64,000 nucleotides of DNA from Candidatus Bathyarchaeota archaeon (GTDB taxonomy: Archaea > Thermoproteota > Bathyarchaeia > Bathyarchaeales > Bathycorpusculaceae). The DNA lies in assembly GCA_029907545.1 (NCBI GenBank), contig JARYLR010000001.1, positions 1-64,000 on the forward strand. The letters run 5' to 3'. Every line of letters starts with the position of its first letter. The first letter of the stretch is position 1. Under the pieces are notes generated by a model that did no database searches, had not been told where the DNA came from, and saw only the letters and a list, made by a program, of their open reading frames with translations. Positions 13,217 to 20,255 of this stretch are shown piece after piece. A program made the translations under genes and the position numbers.

Positions 13217-14680
13217 ATGGGAACAATTGTTGCAGTCATAGACAAGAAAGGCGAAGACGCCACGAATGCCGCAGTGACGATGCTTAAATCATTAAGCGCC
13301 AAGACGGAAATCTGCAAGCTAGCTACACCGGCTGTCACAAGAATCGAAAAGTCTCTCGAGTCGCTAGAAAGCGAAAGCATGAACTCTTCAATACTGATCG
13401 GGCAGATTCTGTGCACGACTCGTTCTGATACTGTGACAAAATGCGTGCAACCTGAAACTAGTTTCATTTTTGAAGGACAAGTATATTCTGAAACGAAAGC
13501 CTCTTGCGACACTCTCATAACGAAAGAACGAAGGGACGAAAAAAAAGCAGCAGAATTCATGAAACAGGCAGATGGCGACTTTGCCTTCATCTTCGCAACC
13601 TCAGATCGCCTTGTCGCAGGACGAGCCCCAATTGGTGTATGCCCGCTGTATTATGGGGAAAACGCGTTTTTTGCCGCATTAGCTTCTGAGCGCAAGGCAT
13701 TATGGAAGATTGGAGTGAAGGAAACAGCCTCGTTTCCGCCTGGACATGTGGCGTCTGTTAGCAGAGAAGGATTCTGCTTTAAACCTGTTAAAACGCTTGC
13801 CTGTCAACCCAAGATGAAAACGACTCACTTAAGAATGGCGGCGATGGCGTTGCAGGCATTGTTGCAGAAGTCGGTTTGTGAAAGAGTGAAAGACCTTAAA
13901 GAGGTAGCGGTGGCATTTTCCGGCGGGTTGGACAGCAGTGTTGTCGCGTGGCTAGCCAAGAACTCTAAGGTGGCCGTTTTTCTTATGCATGTAAGTTTAA
14001 GAAAACAGCCGGAGACGCAGTATGCAAAGCAGGCTGCAGAAGCACTTGGGCTGTCATTAAATGTTCACGAGTACAGTGAAGAGGATTTGGAAAGGGTGTT
14101 GCCGGATGTTTTGTGGGCGATTGAGACGGCGGATCCGCTTGCTGTAAGCATCGGCATTCCGATGTATTGGGCTGCAGAAAAGGCTGTAAGCATGGATTGC
14201 GAGGTTGTGTTGGCTGGTCAAGGTGCTGACGAGCTTTTCGGAGGCTACAAGCGGTATGTGGATTGCTACATACGTCATGGAAGCAGGGAGACGCAGAGAA
14301 TGATCACTAACGATATTCTTAGATTGCATGAAACCAACATAGAAAGAGACCGGAAAATTTGTGATACTCACGGAGTGGAGCTACGCTTGCCCTTTGCAGC
14401 GTATAATGTAGCGAGATTTGCACTAGATTTACCTTTGAAACTGAAAATCGAGCCTAGAACTCTAACTAGAAAGTTTATCTTGAAAAAAACAGCCGCAAAC
14501 ATGGGGCTTCCGCAAATGATAGTGGAAAAGCCGAAAAAGGCGATGCAATATGCTACCGGAACAACTGCGGCACTGAAGAAAATGGCTCAGAAGAAAGGAA
14601 CACCTTTGAAAGATTATTTGCTAGAAATATTCCAGAAGATCTTCGAAAGAGAAGATAAAACATGCACAAAACAGCAGTAG
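13217..14680 (+). CDS. Asparagine-synthetase-like protein lacking the glutaminase cysteine
   Basis: A two-domain protein of 487 residues shaped like AsnB: an N-terminal Ntn/glutaminase-like domain (about 1-190) and a C-terminal ATP-pyrophosphatase domain. The PP-loop FSGGLDSS lies at about 232-239, and QGADELFGGYKRY follows near 335, as in asparagine synthetase B. AsnB proteins begin Met-Cys-Gly because Cys2 is the glutaminase nucleophile; this one begins Met-Gly-Thr-Ile, and no upstream start supplies a cysteine at the right place. It may therefore use free ammonia or another amine, or modify another acid. Its end overlaps the deacetylase gene by 19 bases, so the two are likely co-transcribed. 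Confidence 0.8.
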   Translation: MGTIVAVIDKKGEDATNAAVTMLKSLSAKTEICKLATPAVTRIEKSLESLESESMNSSILIGQILCTTRSDTVTKCVQPETSFIFEGQVYSETKASCDTLITKERRDEKKAAEFMKQADGDFAFIFATSDRLVAGRAPIGVCPLYYGENAFFAALASERKALWKIGVKETASFPPGHVASVSREGFCFKPVKTLACQPKMKTTHLRMAAMALQALLQKSVCERVKDLKEVAVAFSGGLDSSVVAWLAKNSKVAVFLMHVSLRKQPETQYAKQAAEALGLSLNVHEYSEEDLERVLPDVLWAIETADPLAVSIGIPMYWAAEKAVSMDCEVVLAGQGADELFGGYKRYVDCYIRHGSRETQRMITNDILRLHETNIERDRKICDTHGVELRLPFAAYNVARFALDLPLKLKIEPRTLTRKFILKKTAANMGLPQMIVEKPKKAMQYATGTTAALKKMAQKKGTPLKDYLLEIFQKIFEREDKTCTKQQ

Positions 14681-15723
14681 TTTTCTCTCCAATCTATTAC
14701 CGGCATGACCCAGGCAAGAGCCATCCGGAATCGGCAAGACGTTTGCACGCAATCGTTAGAGAGCTTAAAAAAGGAGAAGTTACCGCTCAAAAAAACTGGA
14801 AAATTGTGAAGCCGGAGAATGCATCAATAGACGATGTTGAACTTGTGCATGGCATTGAGTATATCAGGCTGGTAGAGGCTGTTTGCCGCTCTGGCGGAGG
14901 ACTTTTGGACTTGGAAGACACCATTGTCTCGCCTGAGAGCTATAGAGTTGCGCTACATGCTGTTGGAGGAGCATTAAAGGCAGTTAAACTTGTCTTGAAA
15001 GGTTATTTCCAAAACGCGTTCGCCCTTGTTCGCCCACCAGGTCATCATGCCTCGAAATACCGTGCGTGCGGTTTCTGCCTTTTTAACAATGTAGCCATAG
15101 TAGCCAAATACTTGATTGAGAAATGCAAAGTCGAGCGCGTGCTGATATTGGATGTCGATGCACACCACGGGAATGGAACACAGGAAATCTTCTTTGATAC
15201 GAACAAGGTTCTATATGTCAGTCTTCATGAAGATCCCTATGGGTTTCCGGGAACAGGATTTGCCGGAGAAGTTGGCGAGGGCGAAGGTGAAGGCTACAAT
15301 GTTAACGTTCCTTTGCCATTTATGACGGCTGATGACATGTATCTGAGAGCGATGAAGGAAATTGTTGAGCCCATAGTGCTTCAATATGATCCTCAGTTTG
15401 TTTTGGTTTCCGCGGGCTTTGATGGACACCTTTCTGACCCTGTGGGAAATCTTTCCTTGTCTGAATCCTGCTATCAGAAAGTTTTTGGGTCTATCGTTGA
15501 TTTAGCATCGAAAACGGCTTGTGATAGGCTTGTTTCGGTTCTTGAAGGAGGGTATAACGTCAGGTTTCTCGGAAAAAATGCTGCTATAGCTCTCGCGGTG
15601 ATGAGTAGCACTTCTTGCAAAATACATTCGAAGTTTAGGAAGTCAAGTCGCGGTGTGAGAAAGCGGGGTGAAAAAGTGATAGAGGAGGTAAGGAAGCTTC
15701 ATAAGAAGTATTGGGATCTATAG
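14662..15723 (+). CDS. Histone-deacetylase-family (AcuC-like) amidohydrolase
   Basis: A 353-residue arginase/deacetylase-fold zinc enzyme of the HDAC family. The metal site is visible: DVDAHHGNGTQ (about 165-175) supplies the Asp and His ligands, and SAGFDGH (about 250-256) supplies the second Asp. The catalytic His pair is in PPGHHAS (about 125-131). Family members remove acetyl groups from lysines, polyamines or acetoin-metabolism proteins. Archaeal substrates are mostly unknown; Alba-like chromatin or metabolic enzymes are possible. The tight overlap with the asparagine-synthetase-like gene could mean a shared amide-related pathway. Confidence 0.88.
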   Translation: MHKTAVVFSPIYYRHDPGKSHPESARRLHAIVRELKKGEVTAQKNWKIVKPENASIDDVELVHGIEYIRLVEAVCRSGGGLLDLEDTIVSPESYRVALHAVGGALKAVKLVLKGYFQNAFALVRPPGHHASKYRACGFCLFNNVAIVAKYLIEKCKVERVLILDVDAHHGNGTQEIFFDTNKVLYVSLHEDPYGFPGTGFAGEVGEGEGEGYNVNVPLPFMTADDMYLRAMKEIVEPIVLQYDPQFVLVSAGFDGHLSDPVGNLSLSESCYQKVFGSIVDLASKTACDRLVSVLEGGYNVRFLGKNAAIALAVMSSTSCKIHSKFRKSSRGVRKRGEKVIEEVRKLHKKYWDL

Positions 15724-15758
15724 GCGGCGCTGTTTGCCGAGTTGCCAAGTGTTATCTG

Positions 15759-15947
15759 CTATTCGATTACTTGAATTGCAGCTTCGGGGCATTGGACTTC
15801 GCATGCTCTGCAGACCAGACATTCTTCAGGTTTTACAGGAACCGATTTCCCGTCTTTGATCTCGTAAACACCCACTGGGCATGTTTCAACACATGTGCTA
15901 CATCCAGTGCATTTTTCGTTGTTAACAAGGATCTTCACCATTTCCAT
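15759..15947 (-). CDS. Dicluster 4Fe-4S ferredoxin
   Basis: A 62-residue bacterial-type ferredoxin with two classical motifs, CTGCSTCVETCP and CLVCRACEVQCP, each ligating one [4Fe-4S] cluster. It probably carries low-potential electrons in the cytoplasm. The KorABC oxidoreductase in this window has no delta/ferredoxin subunit in its operon, so this small ferredoxin is one candidate electron acceptor. It lies just downstream of the ribophorin-like gene on the same strand. Confidence 0.9.
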   Translation of the reverse strand: MEMVKILVNNEKCTGCSTCVETCPVGVYEIKDGKSVPVKPEECLVCRACEVQCPEAAIQVIE

Positions 15948-16003
15948 CCCTCTTAGATTTTCATGGGATTGATGCAGGCAGAATAAAAGGATTTAGGTTA
16001 GGT

Positions 16004-17761
16004 TTAGCGGATTTCTTCACGAAGTCTTATGATTATGCCGTTGATTTTGGTCTGCGCGTTTTCTTTTCTGCGTTGGTAGTCCCCGAGAAGACCGCGATAA
16101 GCTTCCAGAGAGAGTTCGCCTCTTTCGTGGCGTGCTTCAATGCTCTTCATGTTTGTCTCGGCTTCAATTATGTCTGTCTCAGCAATCTCGAGCTGGCGCA
16201 CCAAGTCAGCATAGTGACCGCTTGTTACACGCATTCTGCTTCGAAGTTCTCCTAGGTCTCTGGAAAGCGTGTTCAAACGGGCTTCCAACGTTTTCTTTTG
16301 CACCTTATATCGGCGTCTGGGAATTCTGCCCTTCTGCACCTTAGCGTCGAGAGAATCAATCTCCGCCATTATTTTCATCTTTTCTTCATATTTATCTGCA
16401 AAGTCCCTTATGTCGTCAAGACGAATTCTCGCACCCCTTAACGGAACAGCAACCTGTTCAGGAGCCTTAGGTCTTTTTGCAACAACGACAACTGCACATC
16501 CAACAATAGCTAGAGCCCACATGATCAGTGTCGGTCGGAAAGACATCCATAGAGAATTGTACTCGTAGACTATCCAGATGCTGAAACTGTCCCTCGAGAT
16601 CACGTTTCGTTTACTAAAGAATAAAGATTCTTGGAAGACAGTTTTGGAAAGCCCATAGTCTTCGCCTATCATGGCTTTGTCGAAGTCTGATATTTTTGCG
16701 CCTTCGGGGAAGCTAAAGGAAACTGAAGCTTGCTCGATGAAGTAATCTGCTTTCTGGAAGAGTTGAAAGGTTACGTTGTGCACATTGCTTACGTCCTGCG
16801 CTACTGAATAGTAGACATCTTTCGGCAAAGGATATGTCAGCGTAAAGACAGCTGATTCCCCAGTCTTCAGAGACGAGTACAGAGTGACCTTGAATGTGTT
16901 TGTGATTCTGTCGGACTGTGTGGGCGTACTAAGTGCTCTACCGGACTGGTCCTGTGCCTTTGGGTTGGAAGCATTAGAAGGCAACATCACCTCAATGAAG
17001 CTCAGCTCTTTGGAGGCCTCGTTGGTTATCCTATAGGTGTCTGAAACCTCTATATCGTTGAACTCGTTTATTGTTACCTTACGCTTCAGCTCTTTCATGT
17101 CGAAAACCTGTATCTTGTCTCCGCTCAGCAGAAAAGTCACGTTTGCCGGAGCATATCGAAATGCAGAAAGAGCCGATACGCTGTAATTCAGACTTCCCTG
17201 TGTCCCAGAAATATAAGTCACATTGCCAGGAATAATTATCGAAGCGTTGCATTTAGCTGCTATTTTAGTTAAGCTGGGATACGCTGGAAAATCTAGAGTG
17301 AAAATGCTTGAGTTCTGGGAATCCTGTGTCAACAGACTGTTTGAGAAAACTATTCCGATGTTAAAAACTTGGCGCGATCCATTGGATACAGACATGGGAC
17401 TTGGAAAGTTTACTCTAACGCCATAGAAGCCAGCGCGATCTTCCAGCGACACATCTTGCACTACCGCGAATACGCTGGATGCGTTGTAGGCAAAACAGCG
17501 GATAACTTGCAGACCGTACTTGTATGGGACGCCGATAAGGAAGTGGTCGATTGCTCCGCCATCTAGAGATTCGCCAGCCAACGTTATAGTCTCGTTCATA
17601 AGAACATACCCGTTGTACATTACCTTTATCTTGTGATCAACATGCTCGATGCGGTAATCAGCGCTCGTTGCGCGAGCAGGGCAAACAGCTTGGGAAACTA
17701 TGGCAACAGCCAAGATTATTAAAGCTACTAAATTGATGACCAATGTTCTTTTTTTCGGCAT
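16004..17761 (-). CDS. Ribophorin-I-like (OST1-like) membrane protein
   Basis: A 585-residue type I membrane protein. It has a signal peptide (residues 1-32), two consecutive extracytoplasmic beta-rich domains (about 35-225 and 226-400), one membrane span (about 410-428), and a cytoplasmic tail of about 155 residues that is basic and coiled coil. The order, domain sizes and span position match eukaryotic ribophorin I (about 600 residues, span near 440, cytoplasmic four-helix bundle of about 150 residues). Specific stretches also recall it from memory: the FPEGAKI strand, the YPLPKDVYY turn, and an aromatic-rich approach to the span. Ribophorin I is the subunit of oligosaccharyltransferase that touches the ribosome. 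Several NxS/T sequons lie in the outer domains. A generic surface-anchored beta protein is the alternative. Confidence 0.6.
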   Translation of the reverse strand: MPKKRTLVINLVALIILAVAIVSQAVCPARATSADYRIEHVDHKIKVMYNGYVLMNETITLAGESLDGGAIDHFLIGVPYKYGLQVIRCFAYNASSVFAVVQDVSLEDRAGFYGVRVNFPSPMSVSNGSRQVFNIGIVFSNSLLTQDSQNSSIFTLDFPAYPSLTKIAAKCNASIIIPGNVTYISGTQGSLNYSVSALSAFRYAPANVTFLLSGDKIQVFDMKELKRKVTINEFNDIEVSDTYRITNEASKELSFIEVMLPSNASNPKAQDQSGRALSTPTQSDRITNTFKVTLYSSLKTGESAVFTLTYPLPKDVYYSVAQDVSNVHNVTFQLFQKADYFIEQASVSFSFPEGAKISDFDKAMIGEDYGLSKTVFQESLFFSKRNVISRDSFSIWIVYEYNSLWMSFRPTLIMWALAIVGCAVVVVAKRPKAPEQVAVPLRGARIRLDDIRDFADKYEEKMKIMAEIDSLDAKVQKGRIPRRRYKVQKKTLEARLNTLSRDLGELRSRMRVTSGHYADLVRQLEIAETDIIEAETNMKSIEARHERGELSLEAYRGLLGDYQRRKENAQTKINGIIIRLREEIR

Positions 17762-17925
17762 ATTCTTCCTCCACTAGTTACCAAGGTTTTTGGCTTCCTA
17801 TTTATTCATAAGCCCATTTATTTACTTTTGGAAAAAGATTGATTTATCGAACGGACACGTGGCTTAATTTTGCATGTTCGAATGAAGCCTCAGACCACCG
17901 AGCGAGTTCTGAATTAGCTATAGAG

Positions 17926-18270
17926 CTATGTTTCGCCATGTTTAAGATAGTAATCATCCTCTTTTTTGGATCCGAAACTTCTAACGCCGCTTGTTTTAAG
18001 CTGTCTTCGAAGTTTTGCAGCGTATTGCTTGTCGATTTCGCCTCTTTTCTCCATGTATGTGATTATTTCTTCCGCCTGAGCATCAGTATCGCATCGCCTG
18101 ACAAAATCGATAACGTCGGGATCGTAGCTGGCAAACTTTCGCGAAGACGCTTTTTTGCCTCTTTCGGCGTCTGTCCGTACAGAGTTTATGCTAACCCTGT
18201 TTTCGTCTAGCTCCATTTCCTTGACTAAGTTTGGAAACATTCGTTTGAAAGATTCTTTGTCGAATGCCAT
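17926..18270 (-). CDS. Small conserved archaeal protein (DUF2095-like)
   Basis: A 114-residue soluble protein beginning with a FKRMFPNLVKEME helix and a SINSVRTD turn, then a charged helical C-terminus. I associate this pattern with the archaeal DUF2095 family, which has no assigned function; the match is from memory. It lies between the nucleotidyltransferase and the ribophorin-like gene on the same strand, with gaps of 81 and 164 bases, so a shared transcript is possible. No cysteines and no membrane segment are present. Confidence 0.6.
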   Translation of the reverse strand: MAFDKESFKRMFPNLVKEMELDENRVSINSVRTDAERGKKASSRKFASYDPDVIDFVRRCDTDAQAEEIITYMEKRGEIDKQYAAKLRRQLKTSGVRSFGSKKEDDYYLKHGET

Positions 18271-18351
18271 GGATCCTCACATTATTTTATCGTAAGATCA
18301 GATATTTAAACGTCACAAAAGGCTGCATGATTTCTGGTTGCAGAAAAAAGG

Positions 18352-18969
18352 TTATTCAGGGAGGAATTTGCGTTCTGGATTCTCTTTGAGAACTTTTTCC
18401 AGTTCATTAATACGCAGTCCCGAAACTATATCGCCGTATATTTCGCATTTTTCTTTGACTTCTGCTTCTTCAGGGTTTCTGACAACTATTTCGATGTTCT
18501 CTTTGATTGGAGATAGGGCATGAATGTGGAATGAGGCTTTTTTTACACCGCGTTTTGTTACAGTCATCCACTGGGTTTGCAGTATCTGAAAGTTGCTTGT
18601 TTCCAGCGTTTTCAGAACTTCTTCGGGGTGGTTGCTGTAAGCTGTTATGTCTATGTCGCTTCGTCTGGTTATTGTTCCGCGCCACACACTTCCGACCAGA
18701 ACTGGCTTGTATTGTTTAAGAAGCATCAGTAATTCCATTGCTTCCTTGCGCATCTGCACTAGCCGCTCTTTTCTGCCTAGTCCTTCTAGCTCTTCTGCTA
18801 TCCTGTCAAGTTCTAAAGCTATTTCAAGGTTTGTTGGAAGAACATTGGCGTTAAGCATTCTTGCCGCTTTTTCTTTGGCTTGTTTATACTCTTTTTCAAT
18901 GTCTGAATACAGAAGGCAAGCAGCTTCTTCTGCAACTCTTTTTCTTAAATTGGAAGGCGGATTTGTCAA
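18352..18969 (-). CDS. Nucleotidyltransferase-fold protein
   Basis: About 205 residues with a pol-beta/minimal nucleotidyltransferase signature: GSVWRGTITRRSDIDI, in which the GS and DxD catalytic elements are correctly spaced. An upstream helical region contains LPTNLEIALELDRIAEELE. The longest open frame reaches 19107 and would overlap the glycosyltransferase by 100 bases. I place the start at the TTG at 18969 because a GGGAG ribosome-binding site precedes it by five bases and this removes the overlap. The substrate (nucleotide onto tRNA, protein or antibiotic) cannot be told. Confidence 0.75.
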   Translation of the reverse strand: MTNPPSNLRKRVAEEAACLLYSDIEKEYKQAKEKAARMLNANVLPTNLEIALELDRIAEELEGLGRKERLVQMRKEAMELLMLLKQYKPVLVGSVWRGTITRRSDIDITAYSNHPEEVLKTLETSNFQILQTQWMTVTKRGVKKASFHIHALSPIKENIEIVVRNPEEAEVKEKCEIYGDIVSGLRINELEKVLKENPERKFLPE

Positions 18970-19004
18970 AATGCTCCCAAGCAGGAAAGGATTTTGGTTG
19001 ATCT

Positions 19005-20255
19005 CTAGCGCTTTATTATTTGCTCGTAGAGTCCCAGCGTTTTTTCTGCTATCCTGTCCCAAGAAAATTCTTCCAAGACGCGTTTTCTGCCATTTTTGCC
19101 GAGCCATTTCCTTTTTTCAGGGTTTTCTAAGGCGCTGTTGATGCCCCATGCAATGTCTGCGGGGTTACTTGGGTTGATGTGGTAGCCGCATTGTTCTTCG
19201 CCGCAGCAGATAACTATTTCTCGCATTCCACTTACTCCTGATGCGCCAACGACAACTGGGCGCTCCATGCTCATTGCTTCCAGCACGACTATGCCGAAAG
19301 GCTCGTAGTGGCTGGGGAAAACCGCGACGTCGCATGCAGCGTAGTGCAGAATACGTTCTTCTTCGGGGATGAATTCGAAGCGGAACTTCACATAGTCGCT
19401 CATCCGGGTGGCTTTGACAAGGTTGGTTAGATATTCCTGCAGGTCACCTAGTCCTACTATGACTAGCTTGGCTTTAGGGGTTTTCTGCAGTATGTGGGGC
19501 ATTGCCATTATCAGTTTGTCAACGCCTTTGACGCCTACGAGTCTGCCGATGAAAAGAATCATTAGCTCGTCGTCTTTCACGTCATAGAGTGCTCGGATTT
19601 TCTTAATCTGCTCTGAGGTGACGGCGTTTGGGTCGTATTTCTGTGGGTCAACTCCGTTGTAGGAGACTTGGATCTTGTCTTTTGGGAAGCCTAAGCTTAC
19701 AAGCTCGTCTTTCATGGCGTAGGAAACTGTGACGATCATGTCGGCAGCCATTGCGCCGTGGAGTTCAATGTTGCTCACGACTTCGGAGCCGTTGCCAAGT
19801 GTTCTTCCTTTTTCTGTTGAGTGAACGTGAAACACGAAGGGTAGCCCGATCTCTTTTTTCACGGTGATTCCGCCCATCGCGGAAAGCCAGTCATGAGCGA
19901 CAACTAGGTCGTATTTGATGTTTTCTTTTCTTATGAGTTCGTTGACAAGTTTGGATGCGCTGAGGTAGTTGTATGTCATGATTTTCGCAAACAGGTGGAT
20001 GCCTCTGCCCCATTTCTTGATGTCTTCCGCTATAACGTCGGGAAGAGAGTCAGAAATGTCAATGTGCTGAGGGCGGTGGATTTCTATGCCACGCCATATC
20101 TCTCTTGTGGGTAGGCTGCCTGCATCGTCGTTCATCGTGAAAATCGTAACATCATTATCCATCAGCACAAACTTTCTAGTGATTTCGGCAGCGTATGTTC
20201 CTAATCCGCCAACTATTTTCGGCGGGTACTCGTAGACTAGGACGGCTAACTTCAT
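19005..20255 (-). CDS. Glycogen-synthase-like glycosyltransferase
   Basis: A 416-residue GT-B enzyme near the GT4/GT5 border. The N-terminal loop KIVGGLGTYAAEI resembles the K-x-GG-L motif of glycogen/starch synthases that binds the nucleotide diphosphate. The donor lobe has FIGRLVGVKGVDKLI and the retaining-transferase motif PSHYEPFGIVVLEAM. It most likely elongates an alpha-glucan from ADP- or UDP-glucose. It is divergent from a wHTH gene (20410) whose C-terminal domain resembles one I associate with archaeal glycogen genes. Trehalose or other glucoside synthesis remains possible. Confidence 0.82.
   Translation of the reverse strand: MKLAVLVYEYPPKIVGGLGTYAAEITRKFVLMDNDVTIFTMNDDAGSLPTREIWRGIEIHRPQHIDISDSLPDVIAEDIKKWGRGIHLFAKIMTYNYLSASKLVNELIRKENIKYDLVVAHDWLSAMGGITVKKEIGLPFVFHVHSTEKGRTLGNGSEVVSNIELHGAMAADMIVTVSYAMKDELVSLGFPKDKIQVSYNGVDPQKYDPNAVTSEQIKKIRALYDVKDDELMILFIGRLVGVKGVDKLIMAMPHILQKTPKAKLVIVGLGDLQEYLTNLVKATRMSDYVKFRFEFIPEEERILHYAACDVAVFPSHYEPFGIVVLEAMSMERPVVVGASGVSGMREIVICCGEEQCGYHINPSNPADIAWGINSALENPEKRKWLGKNGRKRVLEEFSWDRIAEKTLGLYEQIIKR

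Follow-up and report, generated by a model that had tools for sequence, protein, structure and literature searches.

Does a reading frame in an archaeal genome that recalls ribophorin I encode a true relative of this oligosaccharyltransferase subunit, and what could such a protein do in an archaeon? The frame lies in the window, the whole stretch of 64,000 nucleotides that we analyzed from a Candidatus Bathyarchaeota archaeon (contig JARYLR010000001.1), and its likeness to ribophorin I had been proposed from the sequence alone. In 2016, Lombard reported that no archaeal relatives of the non-catalytic oligosaccharyltransferase (OST) subunits had been found (PMC4973528). According to a citation in PMC10307638, OST1 (ribophorin I) and Ost3 were later reported from Asgard archaea. 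According to Carilo et al. (2024), the range of OST1 and OST3/6 takes in eukaryotes as well as the TACK and Asgard archaea; that study also determined the structure of an Asgard OST1 tail and pulled down ribosomes in vitro with the tails of the MK-D1 and human proteins (PMC11417166). Because OST1 is already published for Asgard archaea and stated for TACK archaea (PMC11417166), the novelty of this locus is limited. In the openly licensed literature, we found no paper on OST1 in the host class specifically. We add to this the tailed full-length architecture of OST1 in a TACK class where it is near-universal, evidence that the small partner protein lies close to OSTC, and a tree of the family.

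Results

The window protein is a homologue of ribophorin I

The frame lies exactly where the original prediction had placed it and has the predicted length; it is on the minus strand and starts with ATG (Table 1). The gene is under purifying selection, with a dN of 0.064, a dS of 0.527 and a dN/dS of approximately 0.12 against its nearest relative, a sequence from the same genus that is 87% identical. Of 61 related genomes, 54 carry a homologue, nearly always as one copy and mostly full-length.

Table 1. Coordinates of the OST1 gene, its encoded parts and the OSTC-like gene of the same genome
Feature	Position	Strand	Details
OST1/ribophorin I homologue gene	16004..17761	-	585 aa, ATG start
Shine-Dalgarno GGAGG	17768..17772	-	6 bases upstream of the OST1 ATG; read from the sequence
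Signal peptide	17669..17761	-	Residues 1-31; hydrophobic helix 3-24, from AlphaFold2 secondary structure
Extracytoplasmic beta domain 1	17111..17665	-	Residues ~33-217; AlphaFold2, profile alignment, Foldseek
Extracytoplasmic beta domain 2	16562..17110	-	Residues ~218-400; AlphaFold2, profile alignment
Single membrane span	16478..16555	-	Residues 403-428; AlphaFold2 helix, collinear with the human span
Cytoplasmic four-helix bundle, proposed ribosome-binding domain	16010..16420	-	Residues 448-584
OSTC-like OST3/OST6-family gene	L087:10148-10561 (contig C44)	+	138 aa, three spans, 4.5 kb from STT3/AglB

A family profile built from 52 relatives of the window protein was searched against the PDB and matched human RPN1 with an E-value of 2.6e-36, in two collinear pieces that together cover nearly the whole chain. 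Profile positions 22-246 aligned with human residues 22-252, the region of beta domain 1, and the second domain was matched with an i-E of 2.6e-29. The same profile matched yeast Ost1 (3.3e-19) and 8WHN, the crystal structure of the cytoplasmic domain of the MK-D1 Asgard OST1 (4.8e-23); after the OST1 matches, and leaving aside a second RPN1 entry, the next match stood at 0.0019. Profile-profile comparison with full-length Asgard OST1 gave 1.1e-38 across 535 columns. When the window protein was searched alone, phmmer placed 8WHN first (E 9.2e-8, residues 448-582) and human RPN1 second (E 0.04), with an alignment that runs collinearly through the membrane span and includes the FPEGAK/LPEGAK pair. 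BLASTP against a full-length Prometheoarchaeum OST1, a close relative of the MK-D1 protein, gave 9e-15. Overall, 78 of 518 aligned positions are identical to human RPN1 (approximately 15%), and identity to the MK-D1 protein (WP_147663064.1), which has the same full-length architecture, is approximately 18%. The two short stretches that the original prediction had likened to ribophorin I do align with the human protein, as FPEGAKI with LPEGAKN and YPLPKDVYY with YNLPSYEYLY.

In the single-sequence search of Pfam with hmmscan, the window protein had no match to Ribophorin_I (PF04597) and only a weak coiled-coil match. The original prediction had set such an absence against itself, and the absence holds for the single sequence; the family profile and the relatives, however, do match. 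Individually, 35 of the 52 relatives matched Ribophorin_I (best E 1.1e-15), and two members of the same family, L015 and L026, exceeded its cut-off with 2.6e-9 and 3.2e-10. Routine annotation would therefore name many of these relatives ribophorin I, and the window copy would simply be one that single-sequence annotation misses. Accepted Asgard OST1 sequences (set A3) likewise lacked a PF04597 match. In Pfam, NCBIfam and the PDB, the tail also hit GvpG, tropomyosin, SMC, CdvA and keratin; these hits were discarded as coiled-coil resemblance, being far under the cut-offs and confined to the tail.

Predicted structure

The AlphaFold2 model, computed with the family alignment, has a pLDDT of 90. 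It consists of a hydrophobic helix at residues 3-24, strands at 36-212 and 220-400, a second hydrophobic helix at 403-428, and four long tail helices at 448-476, 482-512, 515-546 and 552-584. The order of parts in the original prediction (signal peptide, two beta domains, span and helical tail) is thus borne out by the model, from which the topology is taken, whereas the tail, described there as a coiled coil, is better called a four-helix bundle. Both extracytoplasmic beta domains have the OST1 topology. In agreement with this, when the model was compared with solved structures, as the original prediction had proposed for human RPN1, Foldseek ranks 1-8 in the PDB were without exception human or yeast OST1/ribophorin I chains, with E-values of 2.1e-29 to 2.0e-20, before falling to 2.3e-7 at the next rank.

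Human RPN1 (6S7O, 8B6L) is the best structural match, and its parts follow in the same order, with two beta domains, a single span and a four-helix cytoplasmic bundle. The full-length superposition with the human protein has a modest TM-score of 0.5 and a large rmsd, which fits a different angle between the tail and the extracytoplasmic part in the model. The tail superposed on 8WHN with an rmsd of 2.0 Å and a TM-score of 0.87. Yeast Ost1 (6C26, 6EZN, 8AGB) shares both beta domains and the span but lacks the cytoplasmic bundle, which the archaeal protein has, as do metazoan and Asgard OST1; the tail-less yeast chains superposed on the model at 5.5-6.0 Å. The tail of the window protein (residues 430-585) is basic, with a pI of 9.8 compared with 8.8 for the human and 9.4 for the Asgard tail. 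Since the profile, the fold and the relatives above the Pfam cut-off agree, the homology and the architecture are secure, and we are close to certain that the window protein is an OST1 orthologue.

Genome context and candidate partners

OST1 in the window is flanked on one side by a ferredoxin-like frame and a histone-deacetylase-family gene, and on the other by DUF2095, nucleotidyltransferase and GT4 glycosyltransferase genes. The neighborhood at 13217-20255 (Asn-synthase-like, histone-deacetylase-family, OST1, DUF2095, nucleotidyltransferase, GT4) is kept in part in many relatives. In the window and the relatives, this conserved neighborhood contains no OST gene, and OST1 is unlinked to STT3.

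As the original prediction had wondered, AglB and an Ost3-type gene do occur in the same genome. STT3/AglB is encoded on contig C44 as a protein of 812 aa (PF02516, E 1.3e-42) with a WWDYG motif, and adjoins a gene of the GlcNAc-1-phosphate-transferase type (PF00953). The small OSTC-like protein encoded on the same contig (Table 1) is closer by profile to human OSTC (3.4e-11) than to MAGT1 (0.076). It shares the three-span core of human OSTC/DC2 (6S7O chain H) and lacks the thioredoxin domain that Ost3, Ost6, MAGT1 and TUSC3 carry. Its match to Pfam OST3_OST6 is under the cut-off, and its AlphaFold model has a pLDDT of only 64; the top three Foldseek matches are OSTC, but with E-values of 0.03-0.1. 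An OSTC-like protein is present in nearly every genome of the host class, and Prometheoarchaeum genomes encode an equivalent of 159 aa. In the human secretory translocon, the OST-A subunit OSTC (DC2) lies packed against the SEC61 plug in its displaced position (PMC12804085). Genome searches for PF04597, DAD1 and OST48 returned no match, and the control genomes were also silent, so this result is not proof of absence; the archaeal partner set is probably smaller than that of human OST, on an OST48/DAD1 search without a working positive control. A CDP-archaeol synthase gene in the genome marks the host as an archaeon, and its pattern of kinship suggests a TACK lineage, most likely Bathyarchaeia.

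Discussion

Proposed function

Taken together, our data make it quite probable that the window gene is a vertically inherited OST1/ribophorin I orthologue that encodes a non-catalytic, STT3-associated and ribosome-docked subunit of the oligosaccharyltransferase. In the putative mechanism, the catalytic STT3/AglB would have the span and, outside the membrane, the two beta domains as its neighbors, and the basic four-helix bundle of the tail would bind the large ribosomal subunit close to SecY. Docking would keep the enzyme at the point of exit of the nascent chain, allowing Asn-X-Ser/Thr sites to be glycosylated during translocation, and the three-span OSTC/Ost3-type protein would be the remaining member of a minimal complex. 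Assembly of the window protein with STT3 is what we infer by analogy with known complexes. That it functions in the oligosaccharyltransferase is very probable. Docking of the tail on the ribosome, argued from the eukaryotic complex and the pull-downs with the MK-D1 tail, is likely, with less confidence than the function itself.

A ribophorin I homologue could also have no role in the OST or at the ribosome and could instead be a surface protein whose cytoplasmic helices serve as an anchor for the cell envelope, division or the like. The separation of OST1 from STT3 in the genome and the low-scoring coiled-coil hits to CdvA and SMC would suit such a role. However, those hits concern only the tail at scores far under the cut-offs, the protein has the OST1 fold and tail topology, the gene is a near-universal single copy in the class alongside the OSTC-like gene, and the Asgard counterpart binds ribosomes (PMC11417166). 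We therefore consider a role outside the OST unlikely and retain the reading as an OST subunit.

Distribution and descent

Only matches with an E-value below 1e-12 were counted as clear OST1 copies; those from approximately 1e-3 to 1e-12 were taken as coiled-coil artefacts. A clear copy was found in 90 of the 100 sampled genomes of the host class, in approximately 60 of the 297 genomes sampled elsewhere in the phylum, in scattered families, and in nearly all of 146 Asgard genomes. No clear copy turned up in several families represented by complete genomes in the phylum sample, and OST1 may thus have been overlooked in studies of a few cultured model species. The ten class genomes without a clear copy (G011, G181, G254, G317, G383, G027, G220, G276, G075 and G422) keep the OSTC-like protein; loss of OST1, its divergence and assembly gaps are possible alternatives there.

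In a tree of eukaryotic, Asgard and TACK sequences, of the kind that the original prediction had called for, sequences grouped by lineage, with 5 label changes compared with 39.9 in shuffles. The window protein falls within nested starred clades that contain only its own class and follow taxonomic order. Eukaryotes group weakly with Asgard archaea (support 66), and the deep branches between groups are weakly supported. Those weak deep branches leave some room for a gain of OST1 by gene transfer, with a eukaryote or an Asgard archaeon as the donor, instead of inheritance from a common ancestor. Nevertheless, such a gain is very unlikely in view of the nested own-class clades, the scarcity of label changes, and the presence of the gene across many more families of the phylum and in nearly all Asgard genomes. 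Old vertical descent of archaeal OST1 best explains the tree and the distribution, and a recent transfer from eukaryotes does not. Chance resemblance, in which beta-sandwich domains and a generic coiled coil merely recall ribophorin I, would suit the weak single-sequence scores of the beta domains, with human RPN1 at E 0.04, but has a negligible chance of being right given that the profile match takes in both beta domains, the first eight Foldseek ranks are all OST1, relatives exceed the Pfam cut-off, and beta domain 2 residues are common to human and yeast (in the column table, R227, LP260-261, D271, G274, P352 and G354 of this domain are shared with human and/or yeast, and the shared positions further along the chain include Y399 and P410).

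Human OST-A rides the translocating ribosome through the cytoplasmic bundle of ribophorin I, and a tailed full-length OST1 that is near-universal and single-copy in a TACK class suggests that this device extends outside the Asgard lineage. We speculate, with rather less than even confidence, that an OST-A-like oligosaccharyltransferase coupled to the ribosome, composed of STT3, a tailed ribophorin I and an OSTC-like three-span protein, was already present in the ancestor that TACK and Asgard archaea share. If this is true, N-glycosylation during translation at the translocon predates the Asgard lineage, and later changes account for the Ost3/Ost6 subunit with its thioredoxin domain, the lack of a tail in yeast Ost1 and the other eukaryotic subunits. 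Many archaeal orthologues are now at hand for testing glycosylation during translation in archaea.

Variant family members

Several homologues depart from the full-length form. In family f23 of the same phylum (L146, L080 and L167), they are approximately 415-430 aa long and, like yeast Ost1, terminate directly after the span, and the ribosome-binding bundle is missing throughout the family. Others (L082, L083, G043, G054, G308 and G323) match the profile only from approximately position 200-220 onward; in members of the L082/L083 type, the first beta domain may be missing, replaced or too diverged to be seen. Weak second matches to beta domain 2 (E 1e-3 to 1e-5) were found in frames of approximately 250-550 aa (G015:C3, G025:C103:46285-46659 and G019:C87), which are possibly distant paralogues.

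In one Asgard clade (genomes G535-G567), OST1 is approximately 980-1230 aa long (L156, 652-4341 on the minus strand, and L198-L205), and in all nine sampled sequences an extracytoplasmic FKBP-type prolyl isomerase domain lies N-terminal to the ribophorin I part. The FKBP_C match reaches an E-value of 1.9e-11, and some of these proteins also match a bacterial Ig domain. We found no paper on this fusion in the openly licensed literature. Human FKBP11 adjoins OST-A at the secretory translocon (PMC12804085), and the Asgard fusion may mirror the FKBP11/OST-A pairing in archaea.
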